A DNA stretch of 64,000 bases, taken from NCBI RefSeq assembly GCF_034377285.1, contig NZ_CP139715.1, positions 4,510,001 to 4,574,000 on the forward strand, read 5' to 3'. Of the stretch, positions 21,489-30,639 are shown one piece after another. Each line of letters begins with the position of its first letter. Within the stretch, counting starts at the first letter, position 1. The stretch is from Thalassobaculum sp. OXR-137. GTDB lineage: Bacteria; Pseudomonadota; Alphaproteobacteria; Thalassobaculales; Thalassobaculaceae. The notes below the pieces were generated by a model. The model saw only the letters and a list, made by a program, of their open reading frames with translations. It was not told where the DNA came from and searched no databases. The translations under genes were made by a program, and so were the position numbers.

Positions 21489-23039
21489 ATGGCGACCGCC
21501 TCCCACGTGGTCGAGGACCAGAGCGCGGTCTTCGACGTCCTCGCCGACCCCGCCACCCATGCCGGTGCCGACGATGTCCAACGCATCGATACCCATGGGG
21601 CCGCGGTGTTCCTGGCCGGGGACGATGCCTACAAGGTGAAGCGGGCGGTGAAGTTCCCGTTCATGGACTTCTCCACCCTAGACAAGCGCAAGACCGCCTG
21701 CGAGGCCGAGATCGCCGTCAACCGGCCGAACGCGCCCGACATCTATCTCGGCGCGGTGCCGATCACCCGCGATGGCGACGGCCTGGCGATCGACGGCACG
21801 GGCGAACCGGTGGAGTGGGCCGTCCATATGCGCCGCTTCGACGTGGACATGACCCTGGACCGGATCGCCGAGCGTGACGGCCTCTCCGACGGCCTCCTGC
21901 GCCGCACGGCCGCCGCCATCGTCGCCTCCCACAAACGGGCGCCGCTGCGCGAGGGCACCGGCTTCGCCAAGGCGCTTGAGGAGATCGTCCGCAGCAACGG
22001 CCGCAGCCTCAAGGAAACGCCGGAGATCTTCGACGCGTTCCGGGCGGAGAACCTGACCCGCCGCTCCCAGGAGGTCCTGAAATCCGTCACCTCCGCCCTG
22101 GATGCCCGGGAGCGCCAGGGCCGGGTGCGGCGCTGTCACGGCGACCTGCATCTGCGCAACATCGTGCTGCTCGGCGAGACCCCCACCCTGTTCGACGCCA
22201 TCGAGTTCGACGAGGCGCTCGCCACCACCGACGTGCTTTACGACCTCGCCTTCCTGCTGATGGATCTGGGCGAGCGCGGGCTGAAACGGGAAGCCAACCT
22301 GATCCTGAACCGCTACCTGGCCGAGGACCGCGACCCGAACCAGATCGCCGGCCTCGCCGCCATGCCGCTGTTCGTCAGCGTTCGGGCGGTGATCCGGGCC
22401 AAGGTGATCGCCGCCTCGGTGGAGAGCGCGGCCGACGACAAGAGGGCCGGGCTGGCGGCCGAAGCCCAGCGCTATTTCGACTTCGCCGAGGCGGTGCTTG
22501 TGCCCTATCCGCCGCGGCTGATCGCCGTGGGCGGGCTGTCGGGCACCGGCAAGAGCACGCTGGCCGCCGAGCTGGCGGGCGACCTCACCCCCTTCCCCGG
22601 GGCGATCCACCTGCGCAGCGACATCATCCGCAAACGGCTGATGGGCGTGGGCGAGCACGAGAAGCTGGACGATGACGGCTACACCCAGGACGTCACCCGA
22701 CAGGTCTACGACGCACTGCTGCAGGAGGCGGAAGCCGCCCTGCGCGCCGGGCAGAGCGTGGTGGTCGACGCGGTGAACCAGCGGTTGGAGGAGCGCGAGG
22801 CCCTGGCCGATCTCGCCGCCGACCTGGACGTGGACTTCACCGGTCTGTGGCTGGAGGCGCCGACCGACACCCTGGTGGCCCGCGCCGACAGCCGGGCGCG
22901 CGACGCGTCGGACGCCGACGGGTCGGTGGTGGCGTCCCAGGCGGAGCGGGATCTGGGATACCTCGACTGGTACCGGATCGACGCCGGCGGCGGCCCGGAA
23001 CAGACCCTGGCCGCGGCGCGGGCGGCGGTGGGCGTTTAG
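21489..23039 (+). CDS. APH-like kinase fused to a P-loop kinase (bifunctional phosphotransferase/ATP-binding protein)
   Basis: A 516-residue two-domain protein. The N-terminal part (about residues 30-330) resembles aminoglycoside/choline-type phosphotransferases, with RCHGDLHLRNIVLL and FDAIEFDEALATTDVLYDLA as catalytic loop and metal site. The C-terminal part (from about residue 335) is a small P-loop kinase of the zeta-toxin/AAA_33 type with GGLSGTGKSTLAAELAG as Walker A. The family is widespread (COG0645 fused to COG2187) but has no firmly assigned substrate; it is not an antibiotic resistance gene by context. CAGGAG precedes the ATG at 21489. The longer frame overlaps the oxygenase gene and is rejected. 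Confidence 0.85.
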   Translation: MATASHVVEDQSAVFDVLADPATHAGADDVQRIDTHGAAVFLAGDDAYKVKRAVKFPFMDFSTLDKRKTACEAEIAVNRPNAPDIYLGAVPITRDGDGLAIDGTGEPVEWAVHMRRFDVDMTLDRIAERDGLSDGLLRRTAAAIVASHKRAPLREGTGFAKALEEIVRSNGRSLKETPEIFDAFRAENLTRRSQEVLKSVTSALDARERQGRVRRCHGDLHLRNIVLLGETPTLFDAIEFDEALATTDVLYDLAFLLMDLGERGLKREANLILNRYLAEDRDPNQIAGLAAMPLFVSVRAVIRAKVIAASVESAADDKRAGLAAEAQRYFDFAEAVLVPYPPRLIAVGGLSGTGKSTLAAELAGDLTPFPGAIHLRSDIIRKRLMGVGEHEKLDDDGYTQDVTRQVYDALLQEAEAALRAGQSVVVDAVNQRLEEREALADLAADLDVDFTGLWLEAPTDTLVARADSRARDASDADGSVVASQAERDLGYLDWYRIDAGGGPEQTLAAARAAVGV

Positions 23040-23058
23040 GCTGCCTTACTCCCTGCAA

Positions 23059-23168
23059 CACTCCCCGGATTTATTCCGGGGCAAGGCGTCAGCTTGGCAT
23101 CTGATGCAACCGAGATATCTGGCGCCGACGCGATCCCCAGCCTCACCCCGGAATAAATCCGGGGAGTG
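23059..23168. repeat. Palindromic element, copy A
   Basis: A perfect 23-bp inverted repeat: arm 23059-23081 starts CACTCCCCGGATTTATTCC, and its reverse complement is at 23146-23168. The 64 bases between are not shared with copy B. Each arm is itself nearly palindromic around CCGGAATAAATCCGG, so RNA from either strand could fold into one or two hairpins. Confidence 0.85.
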
Positions 23169-23205
23169 GTTCCTTCCGTTGGCCACCACCACTCCTTCCT
23201 CTTAA

Positions 23206-23282
23206 TCGTCATCCCGAACTTGTTTCGGGACCTAACAGGCAACCGGGGACGGAAGAGGTCCCGAAACAAGTTCGGGATGACG
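23206..23282. mobile_element. Small palindromic element flanked by TTAA (MITE-like)
   Basis: A 77-base element with a perfect 26-bp inverted repeat: 23207-23232 begins CGTCATCCCGAACTTG and its reverse complement is 23257-23282. A 24-base loop lies between. TTAA stands on both sides (23202-23205 and 23283-23286). The homologous block at 23475-23713 has a single TTAA at 23617-23620 with no element, so this is a filled/empty pair. TA as a 2-base duplication is equally possible. It encodes nothing and would need a transposase in trans. Confidence 0.75.
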
Positions 23283-23304
23283 TTAAGGAAAGTGCAGTCA
23301 GCCC

Positions 23305-23373
23305 CTATCCCCGCGCGTCGATCAGCTCGTACATCGCTTCCAGCGCCGTCACGTATCCCCGCGCGCCGAGGCC
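23305..23373 (-). pseudogene. Isolated 3' fragment of an aroQ allele
   Basis: These 69 bases encode the last 22 residues and stop of AroQ (GLGARGYVTALEAMYELIDARG) with no upstream reading frame. They align with 23645-23713 of the intact gene. I count three differences, all at third codon positions (GGA/GGG, GAA/GAG, GGA/GGC). The homology ends sharply at 23373. Confidence 0.85.
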
Positions 23374-23474
23374 CTCGGCCAGGCACGAGGCCGGGCAGTG
23401 TGAGCGGGGGGCAGGCTAAAACGAGTTCAGCACACGGGACTCGCGGCACCGTTCTTTGTCCCCCTCTCACCAGA

Positions 23475-23583
23475 CACTTCCCGGATTTATTCCGGGGCAA
23501 CGCTGGGACTTCGCTGACGCTCGTTATCGCTGAACCACGTCCCCTCATGCGGACGCCTTGCCCCGGAATGAATCCGGGGAGTG
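23475..23583. repeat. Palindromic element, copy B
   Basis: Arms at 23475-23497 (CACTTCCCGGATTTATTCC...) and 23561-23583 form an imperfect 23-bp inverted repeat, with two mismatches. They match the arms of copy A, while the 63-base interior is different. Confidence 0.8.
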
Positions 23584-23644
23584 GGTCCCTCCGTTGGCCA
23601 CCATCACTCCTTTCCCTTAAGGGAAGTGCAGTCAGCCCCAGCCC

Positions 23645-24085
23645 CTACCCCCGCGCGTCGATCAGCTCGTACATCGCCTCCAGCGCCGTCACGTAGCCCC
23701 GCGCGCCGAGGCCGGCGATCACGGCGGTGACCGCCTTCGACAGGATGGAATGGCGGTGGTCCTCGTCGCGGGCGTGGATGTTGGAGATGTGCAGCTCGAT
23801 CACCGGGCCGCCGTAGATCTTCAGCGCGTCCTGGATCGCCACCGAATAGAAGCTGTAGGCGGCCGGGTTGAGGATCACCCCGTCGGCCACGCCCCGCGCG
23901 GCCTGCAGCATGTCGACGATCTCGCCCTCGATATTGGACTGCTTGAACTCAAGCGGCCCGCGCGCCGCCTCGCGGCACCAGCCCTCGATCTGGGCGAGGG
24001 TCGTGTTGCCGTAGATCTCCGGTTCGCGGATGCCCAGTGTGTTCAGGTTCGGGCCGTTGATGATGTGGACGACGGGCTCAGACAT
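23645..24085 (-). CDS. Type II 3-dehydroquinate dehydratase homologue with altered active site
   Basis: A 146-residue protein with the AroQ fold. Canonical type II enzymes form dodecamers and dehydrate 3-dehydroquinate. Conserved here are IINGPNLNTLG, Arg20 and Tyr25 (REPEIYG), Asn73, and ELHISNIHAR (His99, Ser101, Arg106). However, the near-invariant T-H-T-S after the Asn reads S-F-Y-S (Phe79 in place of the substrate-binding His), and a second active-site Arg is His110. GGAGGAAACC precedes the ATG at 24083-24085. It is followed by a repeat-rich gap and follows a flavoprotein gene by 25 bases. A catabolic dehydratase acting on a quinate-like compound, rather than the shikimate-pathway enzyme, is inferred. 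Confidence 0.82.
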   Translation of the reverse strand: MSEPVVHIINGPNLNTLGIREPEIYGNTTLAQIEGWCREAARGPLEFKQSNIEGEIVDMLQAARGVADGVILNPAAYSFYSVAIQDALKIYGGPVIELHISNIHARDEDHRHSILSKAVTAVIAGLGARGYVTALEAMYELIDARG

Positions 24086-24110: not shown

Positions 24111-25823
24111 TTAGCGCCGGCCCGCGGCGTGGCGGGCGGCGAGATAGGCGAAGGCGATGGCCGGGCCGAGATTGATCCCCGGGGCCGGATAGACCCCACC
24201 CATCACCGAATGCATGTCGTTGCCGCAGGCATAGAGCCCGTCCAGCGGCGCTCCTTCCGCGCCCAGCACGCGGGCCTCGGTATCGGTCTCCAGCCCGATG
24301 GCCGAGCCGATGTCCCCCGGCCACAGCCGGATCGCGTAGAAGGGCGGGGTGCGGATCGGCCCGAGGGTCGGGTTCGGCCCGTGCTTCGGATCGCCATTGG
24401 CCCGCTGATAGACCGTGGTGCCGCGCCGGAAGTCGGTGTCCTCGCCGGTCTCGGCGAAGCGGTTCATGCGGTCGACCGTCTCGGCCAGACCGGCCGGGTC
24501 GATCTCCAGCATCGCGGCCAGTTCCTCCAGGCTGTCGGCCCGCACCAGGTAGCCGTCGGCCAGGAATGGGACCGGTCCGCGCCCGCCCGGATGCACCATA
24601 CCGAGCCCGTATTTCCGCAAGGCGTCGGCATCGCAGATCTCGAAGGCCGGAATGGTCGAGCCGTCCCTGTTCGCGGCGTACATGGCGGCGACGAACTGGT
24701 GATAGGACAGGCTTTCGTTGACGAAGCGCCGCCCGTCGCGCCCGACCGAGACGATCCCCGGCTTGGAGCGGTCGAGGACGAAATGCGGAAAGACCGCCAT
24801 GGAGCCGTCGCGCCGCTTGCGTCGGGAGACCGGCGCCCAGAACACCGGCTGCTCCGCGCCCTCGCCATAGCGGGCGCCGAGCGCCAGGGCGATGTCGTGC
24901 AGCGCGCCCGTATTCCCGGGGGCGGCCGGGCTGTATTCCGGCAGCGGATCGGGCAGGAACTCGGCCCGCCGCGTGGGGTGGCGGGCGAAGCCGCCGGACG
25001 CCAGGATCACCCCGCCGGTCGCCGTCAGCACCTCCTCGCGGCCGCCGCGCTTCACCGTGACCGTTCGGGCCGCACCGTCCCCGGCGATATCCGTCACCTC
25101 CGCCTCGGTCGCCACCGTGACGCCGGCATCCAGCGCCGCGCGCAGCAGCCTTCCGATCAGCGCATTGCCCATCACCAGCCGGGCACCGCGCCCATGGCGC
25201 AGCCGGTCGACCGCGTAGCCGCCGAGCATCCGCGCAACATGACCGAAGGATGTGCGGGACTTCGTGACGTTCATCAGGTGGCCGATATCGTCGCGGTCGA
25301 CCATCATCCCGCCGAGCAGGGTGAACTCCGGGATCGGCGGCCGCAGCTTGCGCAGGGCCCGACCCAGGGTGCCGCCGTCGAAGGGCAGCGCCTCCAGCGC
25401 GCGGCCGCCGGAGACCGACCCCTCGAGCTCGTAGAGATAGTCCGGATGAAACGGCCGGGCGCGGAACCGCACCACCGTCGCCTCCTCCAGGCGCCGCACG
25501 GCCTGCGGTCCGGCCTCCAGGAACGCCTGGCGCATCGCCCGCGGCGCCCGGTTGCCGATCGCGGCGTCGAGGAAGGCGAGCGCCTTGTCCGGGCTGTCCT
25601 CGTTGCCGCCGGCATCGGCGTGGCGGGTGCTCGGAATCCAGACCGTCCCGGCCGACAGGGCCGAGGTACCCCCGACATACTCGGAGCGCTCGAGCAGCAG
25701 GGTCCGCGCCCCCTCCAGGCCGGCGAAGACGGACGCCGCCAGCCCGGCCGCCCCGCCGCCGAGCACGATGACGTCCCAGTCGCGGTCGAGGGGATCGGCG
25801 GGCGACGGCAGCAATCGGGACAT
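24111..25823 (-). CDS. FAD-dependent oxidoreductase, fumarate reductase/3-oxosteroid dehydrogenase (KstD) type
   Basis: A flavoprotein of about 570 residues in the FAD_binding_2 family. The FAD motif VIVLGGGAAGLAASVFAGLE is followed by the KstD-like GGTSALSAGTVWIPSTRHA. The substrate cap includes SRTSFGHVARMLGGY, and the C-terminus has GLYACGNDMHSVMGGVYPAPGINLGPAIAFAY. Relatives introduce double bonds next to a ring ketone or reduce them. It sits just upstream of the AroQ homologue on the same strand and is divergent from a Gfo/Idh/MocA dehydrogenase. The start is uncertain: ATG at 25821-25823 is used, with ATG at 25836-25838 as an in-frame alternative; neither has a strong ribosome binding site. 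Confidence 0.85.
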   Translation of the reverse strand: MSRLLPSPADPLDRDWDVIVLGGGAAGLAASVFAGLEGARTLLLERSEYVGGTSALSAGTVWIPSTRHADAGGNEDSPDKALAFLDAAIGNRAPRAMRQAFLEAGPQAVRRLEEATVVRFRARPFHPDYLYELEGSVSGGRALEALPFDGGTLGRALRKLRPPIPEFTLLGGMMVDRDDIGHLMNVTKSRTSFGHVARMLGGYAVDRLRHGRGARLVMGNALIGRLLRAALDAGVTVATEAEVTDIAGDGAARTVTVKRGGREEVLTATGGVILASGGFARHPTRRAEFLPDPLPEYSPAAPGNTGALHDIALALGARYGEGAEQPVFWAPVSRRKRRDGSMAVFPHFVLDRSKPGIVSVGRDGRRFVNESLSYHQFVAAMYAANRDGSTIPAFEICDADALRKYGLGMVHPGGRGPVPFLADGYLVRADSLEELAAMLEIDPAGLAETVDRMNRFAETGEDTDFRRGTTVYQRANGDPKHGPNPTLGPIRTPPFYAIRLWPGDIGSAIGLETDTEARVLGAEGAPLDGLYACGNDMHSVMGGVYPAPGINLGPAIAFAYLAARHAAGRR

Positions 25824-25947: not shown

Positions 25948-27000
25948 ATGGACGACCTCAAGGTCGCCGTGATCGGCGCGGGCGTGATCGGCCGCACCCA
26001 TATCGACACGCTGTCGAAGGCAAAGGGCGTCGGCCTGTCGGCCATCGTCGATCCGACGCCCGCCGCCCGGGACCTGGCGGCCCGGCATCAGGTGCCGCAT
26101 TTCGCCGATCTCGACGCCCTGCTGGCGGCCGGGATCTGCGAGGCGGCCATCGTGGCGTCGCCCAACGACACCCATGTGCCGATCGCCGGCCGGCTGCTCG
26201 ACGCCGGCCTGCCGATCCTGCTGGAGAAGCCGGTCGCCAGTTCCCTGTCGGAGGCGGCAACGCTGGGCGAAGTCGCGGCGCGGACCGGCGTGCCGGTGCT
26301 GGTCGGCCATCACCGCCGGCACAATCCGCTGATCAAGACCGCCAAACGAGCGATCACCGACGGCGCCATCGGCCCCCTGGTGATGGCGACGGTGACCTGC
26401 GCCATGCTGAAGCAGCCGGACTATTTCGACGTGGCCTGGCGCCGCGACCCCGCCCAGGGCGGCCCGCTGCTGATCAACGCGATCCACGACATCGACCTGC
26501 TGCGCCATTTCTTCGGCGAGATCGCGACGGTCCAGGGCACCCACTCGAACGCGACCCGCGGTCTGGCGGTGGAGGACACGACGGCGGCGATCCTGACCTT
26601 CGAGCAGGGCGGGCTCGCAACCATCGCCCTGTCGGACGCGGCGGTCGGCCCCTGGTCCTGGGAGGTGTCGTCGGGCGAGAATCCGGGCCGGTTCCCCAAG
26701 CACGATCACATCACCCATCTGTATTCCGGGCGCGAGGGGGGCTTGAGCCTGCCGGACCTGTCGCTGTGGACCTACGAGCCCGGCGGAAACTGGACGCATC
26801 CGCTCACCCAGCGGCGTCTGGAGGCCGGAAAAGAGGATACCTACGTCGCCCAGGCGGAACATTTTTGTGCCGTCGTGCGGGGTGAGGTGACACCTTTGGT
26901 CACCTGCCAGGACGGCATCGCGAACATGCAGGTGGTCGCCGCCATCAAACGCTCGGCCGCCACCGGACAGGTGGTGCGCCTGCAGGAGACCGCGCCATGA
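25948..27000 (+). CDS. Gfo/Idh/MocA-family NAD(P)-dependent dehydrogenase
   Basis: A 350-residue oxidoreductase for a sugar, cyclitol or similar polyol. The Rossmann motif is KVAVIGAGVIGRTHIDTL (residues 5-22); the nucleotide-contact EKP motif appears as ILLEKPVASS; the catalytic region has QGGPLLINAIHDIDLLRHFFGE (Asp/His pair in the family position). GGGAGGAA precedes the ATG at 25948. It is first of four tightly spaced genes on the plus strand; its stop overlaps the next start in ATGA. The substrate is not deducible, though the neighbours suggest a cyclic polyhydroxy acid. Confidence 0.9.
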   Translation: MDDLKVAVIGAGVIGRTHIDTLSKAKGVGLSAIVDPTPAARDLAARHQVPHFADLDALLAAGICEAAIVASPNDTHVPIAGRLLDAGLPILLEKPVASSLSEAATLGEVAARTGVPVLVGHHRRHNPLIKTAKRAITDGAIGPLVMATVTCAMLKQPDYFDVAWRRDPAQGGPLLINAIHDIDLLRHFFGEIATVQGTHSNATRGLAVEDTTAAILTFEQGGLATIALSDAAVGPWSWEVSSGENPGRFPKHDHITHLYSGREGGLSLPDLSLWTYEPGGNWTHPLTQRRLEAGKEDTYVAQAEHFCAVVRGEVTPLVTCQDGIANMQVVAAIKRSAATGQVVRLQETAP

Positions 27001-27806
27001 CCGGCAAGCGCCTGTATTCGCTCGGCTATCTCACCGGCAACGGCGTCGATCCGGTGACGGCGGTCAAGATCGCCGCCGAGCACGGCTACGACATGGTCAG
27101 CTTCCGCCTGCTGCCCGCCGCGGGCGAGACCCTGCACCCGCTGCTCGACGACGACACCCTCCTCGCCGACGTGAAAGCGGCGATGCGCGACACCGGCGTG
27201 ACCATGGCCGATGCCGAGATGATCCGCCTGAAGCCGGACACGGATTTGGACAGTGTCACCCCGTTCCTCGACCGGATCTCCGAGCTCGGCGCCCGCCACG
27301 TGCTGGTCGCCATCGACGACACCGACCCGGCGCGGACCCAGGACAATTACACGGCCCTCTGTCACCGTCTGGGCGACTACCGGCTGACCGCCGACCTGGA
27401 GTTCATGCCCTGGACCGGCTGCAAGGACCTGGGCTCGGCCCGCAGGCTGGTGGAGGCGGCCGACCATCCGAGTGCCGCCGTGCTGTTCGACACCCTCCAT
27501 TTCGACCGCTGCGGCTCCACCCTGGACGAGCTCGCCGCCCTGCCCGCATCGCTGATGAACTATGTGCAGATCTGCGACGGGCCGGTGCCCTTCGACCCGT
27601 CCGACGAGGGGCTGATCATGGTGGCCCGCACCGCCCGCATGATCCCCGGCGAGGGCGGCATCGACCTCGCCGCGATCGCCGCCCACATCCCGCCCGGGAT
27701 GACCGTCAGCGTCGAAGTGCCGAACCAGGACCTCACCGCCCGCTTCGGCGCCTCCGAGGTGGCCCGCCGCTCCCTGGAAGCCACCAAGCGCCTGCTCGGC
27801 GACTGA
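26997..27806 (+). CDS. TIM-barrel sugar phosphate isomerase/epimerase-like protein (AP_endonuc_2 superfamily)
   Basis: A 269-residue xylose-isomerase-like TIM-barrel protein. Features are LGYLTGNGVDPVTAVKIAAEHGYD at the N-terminus, metal-site-like segments DLEFMPWTGCKD (Glu), VLFDTLHFDR (Asp/His), YVQICDGPVPFDPS (Asp) and SVEVPNQD (Glu). These match the four-ligand pattern of the family, which includes IolE, IolI and dehydroshikimate dehydratase QuiC/AsbF. It overlaps the dehydrogenase gene by four bases, so the two are co-translated and likely act in sequence. Isomerase or dehydratase activity cannot be chosen from sequence alone. Confidence 0.85.
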   Translation: MTGKRLYSLGYLTGNGVDPVTAVKIAAEHGYDMVSFRLLPAAGETLHPLLDDDTLLADVKAAMRDTGVTMADAEMIRLKPDTDLDSVTPFLDRISELGARHVLVAIDDTDPARTQDNYTALCHRLGDYRLTADLEFMPWTGCKDLGSARRLVEAADHPSAAVLFDTLHFDRCGSTLDELAALPASLMNYVQICDGPVPFDPSDEGLIMVARTARMIPGEGGIDLAAIAAHIPPGMTVSVEVPNQDLTARFGASEVARRSLEATKRLLGD

Positions 27807-27840: not shown

Positions 27841-28548
27841 ATGGCCCTGACCGGCTCCGCCTTCCTGGCGCTGTTCCACGACATCGATCCGGCGTCTTGG
27901 ACCGAATACATGGAGTGGCATACCCGCGAGCACATGCCCGAGCGGCTCTCCATTCCCGGCTTCACGGTCGGCAAGCGGCTGATCAACCACGCCCTGCCGC
28001 GCTACCGCTACGGCACGGTCTATGGCGGCGAGACGGCGGAGGTGTTCCGCTCGCCGGCCTATCTGGAGCGGCTCAACAACCCGACCGACTGGAGCAACAA
28101 GGTGCAGCCGACCTTCCGCAACTTCCTGAGGGTCGCCTGCGAGCGGGTGGTCTCCAGCGGCGTGGGCGACGGCGGGGCGATGGCGACGGTGCGGCTCGAC
28201 TTCCTCGACGGCGCCGGCGAGGCGGATCTCCGGGCCAAGGCGGCGCAGCTCAGCCGGACTCTCTTGGGCGTCACCGGCGCCTGCTGTACCCATATCGGCC
28301 TCGCCCGCAGCGAGATCTCCGGCGTGAAGACCAAGGAGACCGAGCTGCGCCCGACGATGAGCGAGAAGGAATTCGACGCCATCGTCCTGGTGGAAGGCAG
28401 CGGCCTGCCGGAGCTGATCGCCTCCGCCACCGACATCGAAGCGGTCATCGCCGAGAGCGGCTGCGGCGTCGGCTACCCGGCGACCATCGTCTACAACCTC
28501 GCCTATCAGCTCACCGCCGCCGACATGGCGGCCGGCGGTGCGGCATGA
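27841..28548 (+). CDS. Conserved protein of unknown function, EthD/dimeric alpha-beta-barrel-like
   Basis: A 235-residue protein with no signal peptide or membrane segment. The start, FLALFHDIDPASWTEYMEWH followed by TREHMPERLSIPGFTVGKRL, resembles small ferredoxin-like dimeric barrels of the EthD or DUF4286 kind, which have an H-x-x-E-H-(M/L)-P-x-R motif. The second half (about residues 115-225) may be a second, diverged copy of the fold. GAGGAAA lies before the ATG. It is 34 bases after the isomerase gene and overlaps the next gene by four, so it is part of the same operon. The role is unknown; such proteins often help degrade small organic acids. Confidence 0.7.
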   Translation: MALTGSAFLALFHDIDPASWTEYMEWHTREHMPERLSIPGFTVGKRLINHALPRYRYGTVYGGETAEVFRSPAYLERLNNPTDWSNKVQPTFRNFLRVACERVVSSGVGDGGAMATVRLDFLDGAGEADLRAKAAQLSRTLLGVTGACCTHIGLARSEISGVKTKETELRPTMSEKEFDAIVLVEGSGLPELIASATDIEAVIAESGCGVGYPATIVYNLAYQLTAADMAAGGAA

Positions 28549-29444
28549 CCGTCCTTCTCACCGGCGGCGGCGGGTTTCTCGGCGCCTGGATCATCCGACG
28601 GCTCGCGGCGCGGGGCCTGCAGGTGCGGGTCTTCGACCGGCGCGAGGATCGCGGCATCGTGCGGTCCATCGCCGGCGACGCGGCCGACCGGGTCGAGTGG
28701 CACACCGGCGACGTGGCCTCCGGCGAGGACGTGATGCGGGCGGCCGAAGGCTGCGACTTCGCGATCCATCTGGCCGCCATTCTCACCCCGGCCTGTGCGC
28801 AGAACCCCATCCTCGGCGCCCAGGTCAACCTGATCGGCACGCTCAACGTGTTCGAGGCGGCCAAGGCCCAGGGGATGCGCGGCGTCGCCTATGCCAGCAG
28901 CGCCGGGGTCTTCGGCCCCGACGACGGGGCCATCCCCTATCCCACCACCCATTACGGCGCCTTCAAGCTCGCCTGCGAGGGCAGCGGGCGGGCCTATTGG
29001 CTCGATGCCGGGATCTCCAGCGTTGGCTTCCGGCCGGCCATCGTCTATGGGCCGGGCCGCGAGACCGGGCTGACGGCGGGGCCGTCCATCGCCTGCCGCG
29101 AGGCGGTCGCCGGGCGTCCCTATACGATCGGCTATTCCGGCGCGGCGGACATGATCTATGTGGACGACGTCGCCGCCGTCTTCGAGGCGGCCGCCACACG
29201 CCCGTTCGAGGGCGCCCACGCCTTCTCCCTGGTCGGCGAGGTGGCGGATGTCGAGGCGATCGCGTCGGGAATCATGGGGCTGGTGCCGGGTGCTGCGATC
29301 GACTGGTCGGGCCCGCCGCTGCCGCTGCATCCGGTGATCGCCCCGAGCCCGATCGCCGCCGTGCTCGGCGACCTGCCCCATACGCCGCTGTCGAACGGGC
29401 TGGCGAAGACGGTTTCGTTCTACCGGGGAGAGGGAGCGGCGTAA
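28545..29444 (+). CDS. NAD-dependent epimerase/dehydratase (extended SDR)
   Basis: A 299-residue extended short-chain dehydrogenase. It begins MTVLLTGGGGFLGAWIIRRL (GxxGxxG) and has DFAIHLAAILTPAC, ASSAGVFGPDD and the catalytic Tyr/Lys in THYGAFKLACEG, then VGFRPAIVYGPGRE and MIYVDDVAAVFEAA. The start ATG at 28545 overlaps the preceding stop. It is the last gene of the plus-strand operon. A G+C-rich hairpin covers its stop codon. Relatives oxidise or epimerise sugar acids (for example UdhA-like, denD-type enzymes). The length is normal. Confidence 0.88.
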   Translation: MTVLLTGGGGFLGAWIIRRLAARGLQVRVFDRREDRGIVRSIAGDAADRVEWHTGDVASGEDVMRAAEGCDFAIHLAAILTPACAQNPILGAQVNLIGTLNVFEAAKAQGMRGVAYASSAGVFGPDDGAIPYPTTHYGAFKLACEGSGRAYWLDAGISSVGFRPAIVYGPGRETGLTAGPSIACREAVAGRPYTIGYSGAADMIYVDDVAAVFEAAATRPFEGAHAFSLVGEVADVEAIASGIMGLVPGAAIDWSGPPLPLHPVIAPSPIAAVLGDLPHTPLSNGLAKTVSFYRGEGAA

Positions 29445-29589: not shown

Positions 29590-30639
29590 CTAGACCCGCT
29601 CGCTTTCGGCGATGGCCGCGCGGCGGGCGCGTTCCTTGACCTGGGAAGGCGGATAGCCGAATTCGCGGTGGAAGGCCGTGGCGAAATTGGCCGGGCTGGA
29701 ATAGCCCACCCGCTGCGCCACGTCGCCGACCGACAGCCCTTCCCTGTCCAGCAGATCCCGGGCCATCTCCAGCCGGCGCACCCGCGCGAACTCCATCACC
29801 GTCTGGCCGTAGCAGTCTCGGAAGACCCGCTGCAGGGTGCTGACGCTCATGCCCGTCTGCGCGGCGATGTCCGGAAGATGCAGGCCGTCGTCCAGGCTGC
29901 GCAGGATCAGCTCGCGCGCGGTCTGGGCACGCACCATGTCGCGGGCACGCAGATGACGCGGCACCGCGCGCTGCTCCTCCACCCGGAACCCCGACAGGGC
30001 ATCGGCCAGGATGGTCAGCATGTCGCGCTCCGAGGCGATGCTGGTCAGCACCCCACCCTCGGCGCCGCGGGTCAGGAGATCCTCGGCGCTGCGCACCGCG
30101 GCCGTCGACGGCTCCCAGTCCCTGACCGCCGCCTGGCCCCGCAGGAAGACTTCAAGCTCGCGCGACAGGGTGGAGGCGGGATCGTCGCCGCTGCGGTCCT
30201 CGAACCAGGAGATCGGCACCCGCAGGGTTACCTTGCGGACGTAACGGCCACGGGTGGAGGTGCGCAGCAGTGTGGTCGGCCGGGTGACCGAGATCAGCCG
30301 GCCGACCGGTCCGCGGCGGGCCGAGAACTTCACTGGGGCGCCTTCGATCGTCGCGTCGTAACTGCCCTCCAGCATCATCACGAGGCTGAGGCCGGGATAC
30401 AGCGTCGTGCTGCACTGGAGATCGGCCATCTCCAACGCGTCGGTGGCTGCCAGGCTGATGCCGGAGGCGAAGTCCTGGAATGTGGAACGGCCGTCCATCG
30501 GGTGCGACGGCACGGTCATCTGCTGGGTTCGGATGGAATAGTCCAGATTGGCGCTTTCGCCCGGGTGCTGACCCGAATCCACCGCGGATCCGACCCCCTC
30601 GGCCGCGCGACTGTTTCCTGTTCGGCTGCTATGACTCAT
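29590..30639 (-). CDS. AraC-family transcriptional regulator
   Basis: A 349-residue AraC/XylS protein. The C-terminal DNA-binding domain (about residues 240-340) has both helix-turn-helix units: LPDIAAQTGMSVSTLQRVFRD and SVGDVAQRVGYSSPANFATAF, then HREFGYPPSQVKERAR. The N-terminal region has SLVMMLEGSYDATIEGAP and a beta-rich segment as in the PchR branch of siderophore-sensing regulators, but the effector is not known. It converges with the ring-catabolism operon. The first 45 residues are poorly conserved in type, so a start further inside, such as the Met at codon 41, remains possible. Confidence 0.85.
   Translation of the reverse strand: MSHSSRTGNSRAAEGVGSAVDSGQHPGESANLDYSIRTQQMTVPSHPMDGRSTFQDFASGISLAATDALEMADLQCSTTLYPGLSLVMMLEGSYDATIEGAPVKFSARRGPVGRLISVTRPTTLLRTSTRGRYVRKVTLRVPISWFEDRSGDDPASTLSRELEVFLRGQAAVRDWEPSTAAVRSAEDLLTRGAEGGVLTSIASERDMLTILADALSGFRVEEQRAVPRHLRARDMVRAQTARELILRSLDDGLHLPDIAAQTGMSVSTLQRVFRDCYGQTVMEFARVRRLEMARDLLDREGLSVGDVAQRVGYSSPANFATAFHREFGYPPSQVKERARRAAIAESERV

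Follow-up and report, generated by a model that had tools for sequence, protein, structure and literature searches.

Type II dehydroquinase (AroQ) is a textbook enzyme and a drug target, and the residues that contact its substrate are treated as defining. Within a 64,000-nucleotide stretch of the Thalassobaculum sp. OXR-137 genome, hereafter the window, lies an aroQ homologue from which the canonical substrate pocket, His81 and Arg112 of the M. tuberculosis enzyme serving the C5 hydroxyl, is absent, these positions being Phe79 and His110. The locus raises the question of what an AroQ altered in this way acts upon, and in which pathway. Our answer, probable rather than firm, is that the gene encodes a type II dehydroquinase of catabolism whose C5-OH pocket has been rebuilt; we infer its activity and substrate from its residues, its relatives and its genomic surroundings.

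The open reading frame is intact and encodes 146 amino acids (Table 1). It starts at the ATG at 24085, preceded by GGGAGGAAACCG with GGGAGG as the ribosome-binding site, and a gap of ~25 nt separates this start from the stop codon of the adjoining flavoprotein gene. The PF01220 profile places the protein in the DHquinase_II fold family (E=1.3e-48; 164.7 bits against a curated cut-off of 23.3), whereas its 151.2 bits do not reach the TIGR01088 AroQ equivalog cut-off of 169.85 bits, which is exceeded by the genome's own canonical AroQ (196.6 bits). The predicted model (pLDDT 81.7, with the loop of residues 103-114 at low confidence) shows the flavodoxin-like dehydroquinase fold, with a TM-score of 0.90 to S. 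coelicolor 1D0I. The closest named orthologues are those of Thalassobaculum litoreum (93%) and a Thalassobaculaceae MAG (92%). A 69-bp copy of the 3' end of aroQ, including the stop codon and 95.7% identical, is found ~0.3 kb downstream at 23305-23373 (-), inside a repeat-rich stretch (23036-23650).

Table 1. Position, strand and assignment of the aroQ homologue and its neighbours in the window.
Feature	Position	Strand	Basis and remarks
Putative F-type type II dehydroquinase (AroQ homologue; Phe79/His110)	23645..24085	-	PF01220, residue alignment, fold model
KstD-family FAD-dependent dehydrogenase	24111..25823	-	Same operon, upstream of aroQ; NCBIfam PRK12843 equivalog
Gfo/Idh/MocA oxidoreductase	25948..27000	+	PF01408/PF02894; divergent operon; conserved by F-type aroQ
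Xylose-isomerase-like TIM barrel	26997..27806	+	PF01261; related to QuiC N-terminal domain and Lmo2234
EthD-like protein, 235 aa	27841..28548	+	No Pfam/NCBIfam family; recurrent F-type aroQ neighbour
NAD-dependent epimerase/dehydratase-type SDR	28542..29444	+	PF01370
AraC-family regulator	29590..30639	-	PF12833; position conserved in two congeners

The first-pass annotation had described a protein that keeps several catalytic residues and reads SFYS in place of THTS, with the equivalent of M. tuberculosis Arg112 replaced. The alignment bears out all of this: Arg20, Tyr25, Asn73, Asp86, His99, Ser101 and Arg106 are present, M. tuberculosis His81 corresponds to Phe79, and Arg112 to His110. According to a QM/MM study of the M. 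tuberculosis and H. pylori enzymes, the C5 hydroxyl is bound by His81/82 and Arg112/113, the C4 hydroxyl by Asp88'/89', and the C1 hydroxyl and carboxylate by Asn75, His101 and Ser103; Arg112, jointly with Arg108, is also said to help lower the pKa of the tyrosine (PMC6011038). As both lost residues are C5-OH contacts, the changed part of the window protein is exactly the C5-OH subsite, and the equivalent of Arg108 (Arg106) is retained. In comparison with characterized type II AroQ enzymes (S. coelicolor 1GU0/1D0I and M. tuberculosis), the fold is the same at ~40-50% identity and the equivalents of Arg19, Tyr24, Asn75, Asp88, His101, Ser103 and Arg108 are shared, but His81 is replaced by Phe and Arg112 by His, the Phe preceding Arg112 is lost, the equivalog cut-off is not attained, and the genome context is not biosynthetic.

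To place these exchanges, 122 homologues, collected at family, class and phylum level and from plasmids, were aligned and classified by residue 79, as F-type (Phe79) or H-type (His79). At residue 110 the 62 F-type rows divide into 32 with His and 30 with Tyr, and the 55 H-type rows uniformly have Arg; four further rows carry Thr, Met or Asn at 79 together with Arg110. Since Phe79 is always accompanied by His or Tyr110 in the 62 F-type rows, the pair in the window protein is no sequencing accident. R20, Y25, N73, D86, H99 and R106 are invariant in these 62 rows, as is Lys89, and position 109, Phe in 53 of the 55 H-type rows, is almost always another residue. In a tree built with columns 79 and 110 removed, the F-type sequences form one side of a single branch (SH-aLRT 91), where Phe79 needs a single change and residue 110 needs four, which is best read as one founding event followed by His/Tyr exchange. 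Given so few changes, and classes that are themselves defined by residue 79, the 62:55 split was rejected as independent evidence of coevolution.

This branch appears to have gone unremarked. The PDB alignments that were examined, part of 39 matches, are all H-type, and our search of the literature found no assayed F-type enzyme; nor was a described catabolic AroQ subfamily found in the open literature, and a kinetic survey of 38 enzymes gives no sequences (PMC4314829). The nearest functional comparison is the type II dehydroquinase of C. glutamicum (8IDR/8IDU), which has the same fold and presumed reaction as the window protein but, in the alignment, retains HTS and REEFRHHS and thus lacks the F-type change. 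We take this enzyme to be QsuC of quinate/shikimate catabolism in that organism.

The genome was searched family by family and contains three PF01220 genes, namely the F-type gene of the window, a canonical copy and a divergent one; no type I dehydroquinase was found in it. The canonical copy, which the first-pass annotation had proposed to look for, lies at C1:5147336-5147743 (THTS, EEFRHHS), ahead of accB and accC. All 24 checked genomes with an F-type gene have at least two PF01220 copies. In the window genome, the F-type gene is additional to the normal biosynthetic enzyme. Adjacency to accB/accC, for which even the short H-type loci suffice (most only 3.4 kb, too short for a full comparison), is found at 44 of 54 H-type and none of 60 F-type loci.

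The catabolic look of the locus, pointed out from the window sequence earlier, finds support in the neighbourhoods of both the window gene and its relatives, and the SFYS homologues do form a subfamily with gene neighbourhoods of its own. Of the F-type loci, 57 exceed 9 kb in length; close relatives are counted among them, and the numbers are not independent. Of these 57, TRAP transporters occur at 32, shikimate dehydrogenase and/or QuiC-like genes at 20, a flavoprotein and/or EthD-like gene at 17, and both of the latter two gene sets at two. Shikimate dehydrogenase or QuiC-like genes and TRAP transporters make up the layout of quinate/shikimate catabolism. The shikimate dehydrogenase and QuiC-like genes are rarer with His110 (4/28) than with Tyr110 (16/29). 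Plasmids that carry loci with these genes occur in Loktanella, Haematobacter, Rhizobium and Chelatococcus, and on two Paracoccus plasmids F-type aroQ is flanked by pca genes. A catabolic setting does not require Phe79, as the aroQ adjoining QuiC-like and shikimate dehydrogenase genes in Burkholderia multivorans is H-type. In five relatives of one genus (g9; L044-L048), genes resembling galB, galC, galD and an extradiol dioxygenase gene lie 3-9 kb from F-type aroQ on the opposite strand.

In the window, the context is of the flavoprotein/EthD kind, with a divergent operon of Gfo/Idh, TIM-barrel, EthD-like and SDR genes; the AraC-family protein may regulate the locus. Neither QuiC nor shikimate dehydrogenase adjoins its aroQ. 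The flavoprotein, the start of which was set by comparison with orthologues, scores 807.8 bits against PRK12843 (cut-off 758); it belongs to the same family as 3-ketosteroid 1-dehydrogenases and ChcC2-type desaturases, its nearest solved relatives being 3-oxosteroid 1-dehydrogenases, resembles models of 4-oxocyclohex-2-ene carboxylate dehydrogenase, and retains a Tyr-Pro-x-x-Gly motif near its end. Its linkage to aroQ is retained across the family. The TIM barrel matches QuiC weakly (E=4.4e-7) and Lmo2234 better (E=3.8e-13), and for the EthD-like protein a two-domain tandem alpha/beta-barrel fold is only suggested by a low-confidence model (pLDDT 64.7). Parts of this context, which includes the KstD-like flavoenzyme, are met again in distant genera. 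In one of them (L180), a Tyr110 aroQ is accompanied by SDR, Gfo/Idh, TIM-barrel and EthD-like genes together, and the EthD-like gene also recurs beside F-type aroQ on the conjugative Bradyrhizobium japonicum plasmid pS11L-1, in the set TRAP, aroQ, EthD-like, TIM barrel and FAD oxidoreductase.

The proposal of the first-pass annotation that the protein acts on a different substrate is not supported by the Phe79 relatives, which cluster with shikimate dehydrogenase, QuiC-like and sometimes pca genes. QuiC converts dehydroshikimate to protocatechuate by removal of the C5 hydroxyl. Because it eliminates that hydroxyl, the F-type substrate and product in QuiC-linked clusters must carry it; these relatives share the loss of His81 and Arg112, so that the loss does not in itself imply a substrate without C5-OH and was rejected as proof of a new one. 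Since relatives adjoin genes for quinate/shikimate use, the F-type gene is probably a scavenging version of the known enzyme and not one dedicated to a new substrate. It would convert 3-dehydroquinate to 3-dehydroshikimate and water during the breakdown of quinate- or shikimate-type acids, while biosynthesis would be served by the canonical copy beside accB/accC. Tyr25, activated by Arg20, Arg106 and Asp86 of the neighbouring subunit, would take the C2 proton, and His99 would protonate the leaving C1 hydroxyl. The C5-OH subsite would have been rebuilt once in the ancestor of the branch, with Phe replacing His79, loss of Phe109, and His or Tyr in place of Arg110; the imidazole or phenol now at 110 probably makes up for both missing contacts. 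The KstD-like flavoprotein and other genes next to aroQ in the window lineage probably either use the enone product or supply the ketone substrate. The same genome holds a shikimate dehydrogenase and QuiC-like pair without aroQ (C1:1986068-1988895, unlinked to the window locus) as well as pcaGH, and with these an F-type dehydroquinase would complete a route from quinate to protocatechuate. Counting against the catabolic dehydroquinase are the missing QuiC or shikimate dehydrogenase neighbour, the missed equivalog cut-off and the H-type copy of Burkholderia multivorans.

A different substrate is conceivable for the window context, where no QuiC gene adjoins aroQ. The dehydratase might act on a dehydroquinate analogue with the C5 hydroxyl absent or modified, and the flavoprotein might then introduce a C4-C5 double bond into the 3-oxocyclohexene carboxylate so formed, giving an aromatic acid of the protocatechuate or 3-hydroxybenzoate type. 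The loss of both C5-OH contacts would suit such a compound, as would the grouping of the flavoprotein with 3-ketosteroid and 4-oxocyclohexene-carboxylate dehydrogenases with its motif kept, the 17 of 57 long loci with FAD oxidoreductase or EthD-like genes (a compact TRAP-AroQ-EthD-FADox set among them) and the recurrence of the divergent gene set with Tyr110 aroQ in a distant genus; the Phe79 branch also occurs in QuiC-linked clusters that need the hydroxyl, however, two loci have both gene sets, and no candidate compound was identified, which leaves this alternative rather unlikely. A KstD-type flavoprotein could aromatise the dehydratase's enone, giving gallate from dehydroshikimate or protocatechuate from a 5-deoxy analogue. 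It seems doubtful, if conceivable, that F-type dehydration of a cyclohexane acid other than dehydroquinate, KstD-like aromatisation and the EthD-like protein make up the three parts of a transferable module.

Direct oxidation of 3-dehydroshikimate at C4-C5 by the flavoprotein would yield gallate, a chemically natural reaction for a KstD-type enzyme and one hinted at by the gal-like genes of the g9 relatives, but we consider it very improbable: the g9 loci lack the flavoprotein, GalB homologues are absent from the window genome and its congeners, and the sole LigB-type dioxygenase match (114 bits over a 299-aa frame) is not convincing. For the window genome, without GalB or a convincing gallate dioxygenase, this route was rejected. 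That the gene is a relaxed, non-catalytic or merely redundant paralogue is less credible again, and scarcely to be expected; the genome does have a canonical copy, yet the catalytic residues are invariant over 62 sequences and the flavoprotein linkage is retained across the family.

We contend that the F-type branch, which many alphaproteobacteria carry and which has swapped both C5-OH contacts together, with the chemistry residues fixed and catabolic genes nearby, is a direct test case for the rewiring of a substrate subsite. It would also correct the biosynthetic annotation of many 'aroQ' genes, and its loci point to an AroQ/KstD/EthD catabolic module that is so far uncharacterized.

The divergent third paralogue of the genome (L153 9258-9698 (+); C1:4076260-4076664) lies directly behind recG and falls into neither type in the 122-row alignment. 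It has neither THTS nor the REEFRHHS loop (NYAG and a 3-residue gap instead) and retains the Arg, Tyr, Asn, Asp and His; its relatives occur family-wide, at ~38-40% identity to the window protein.
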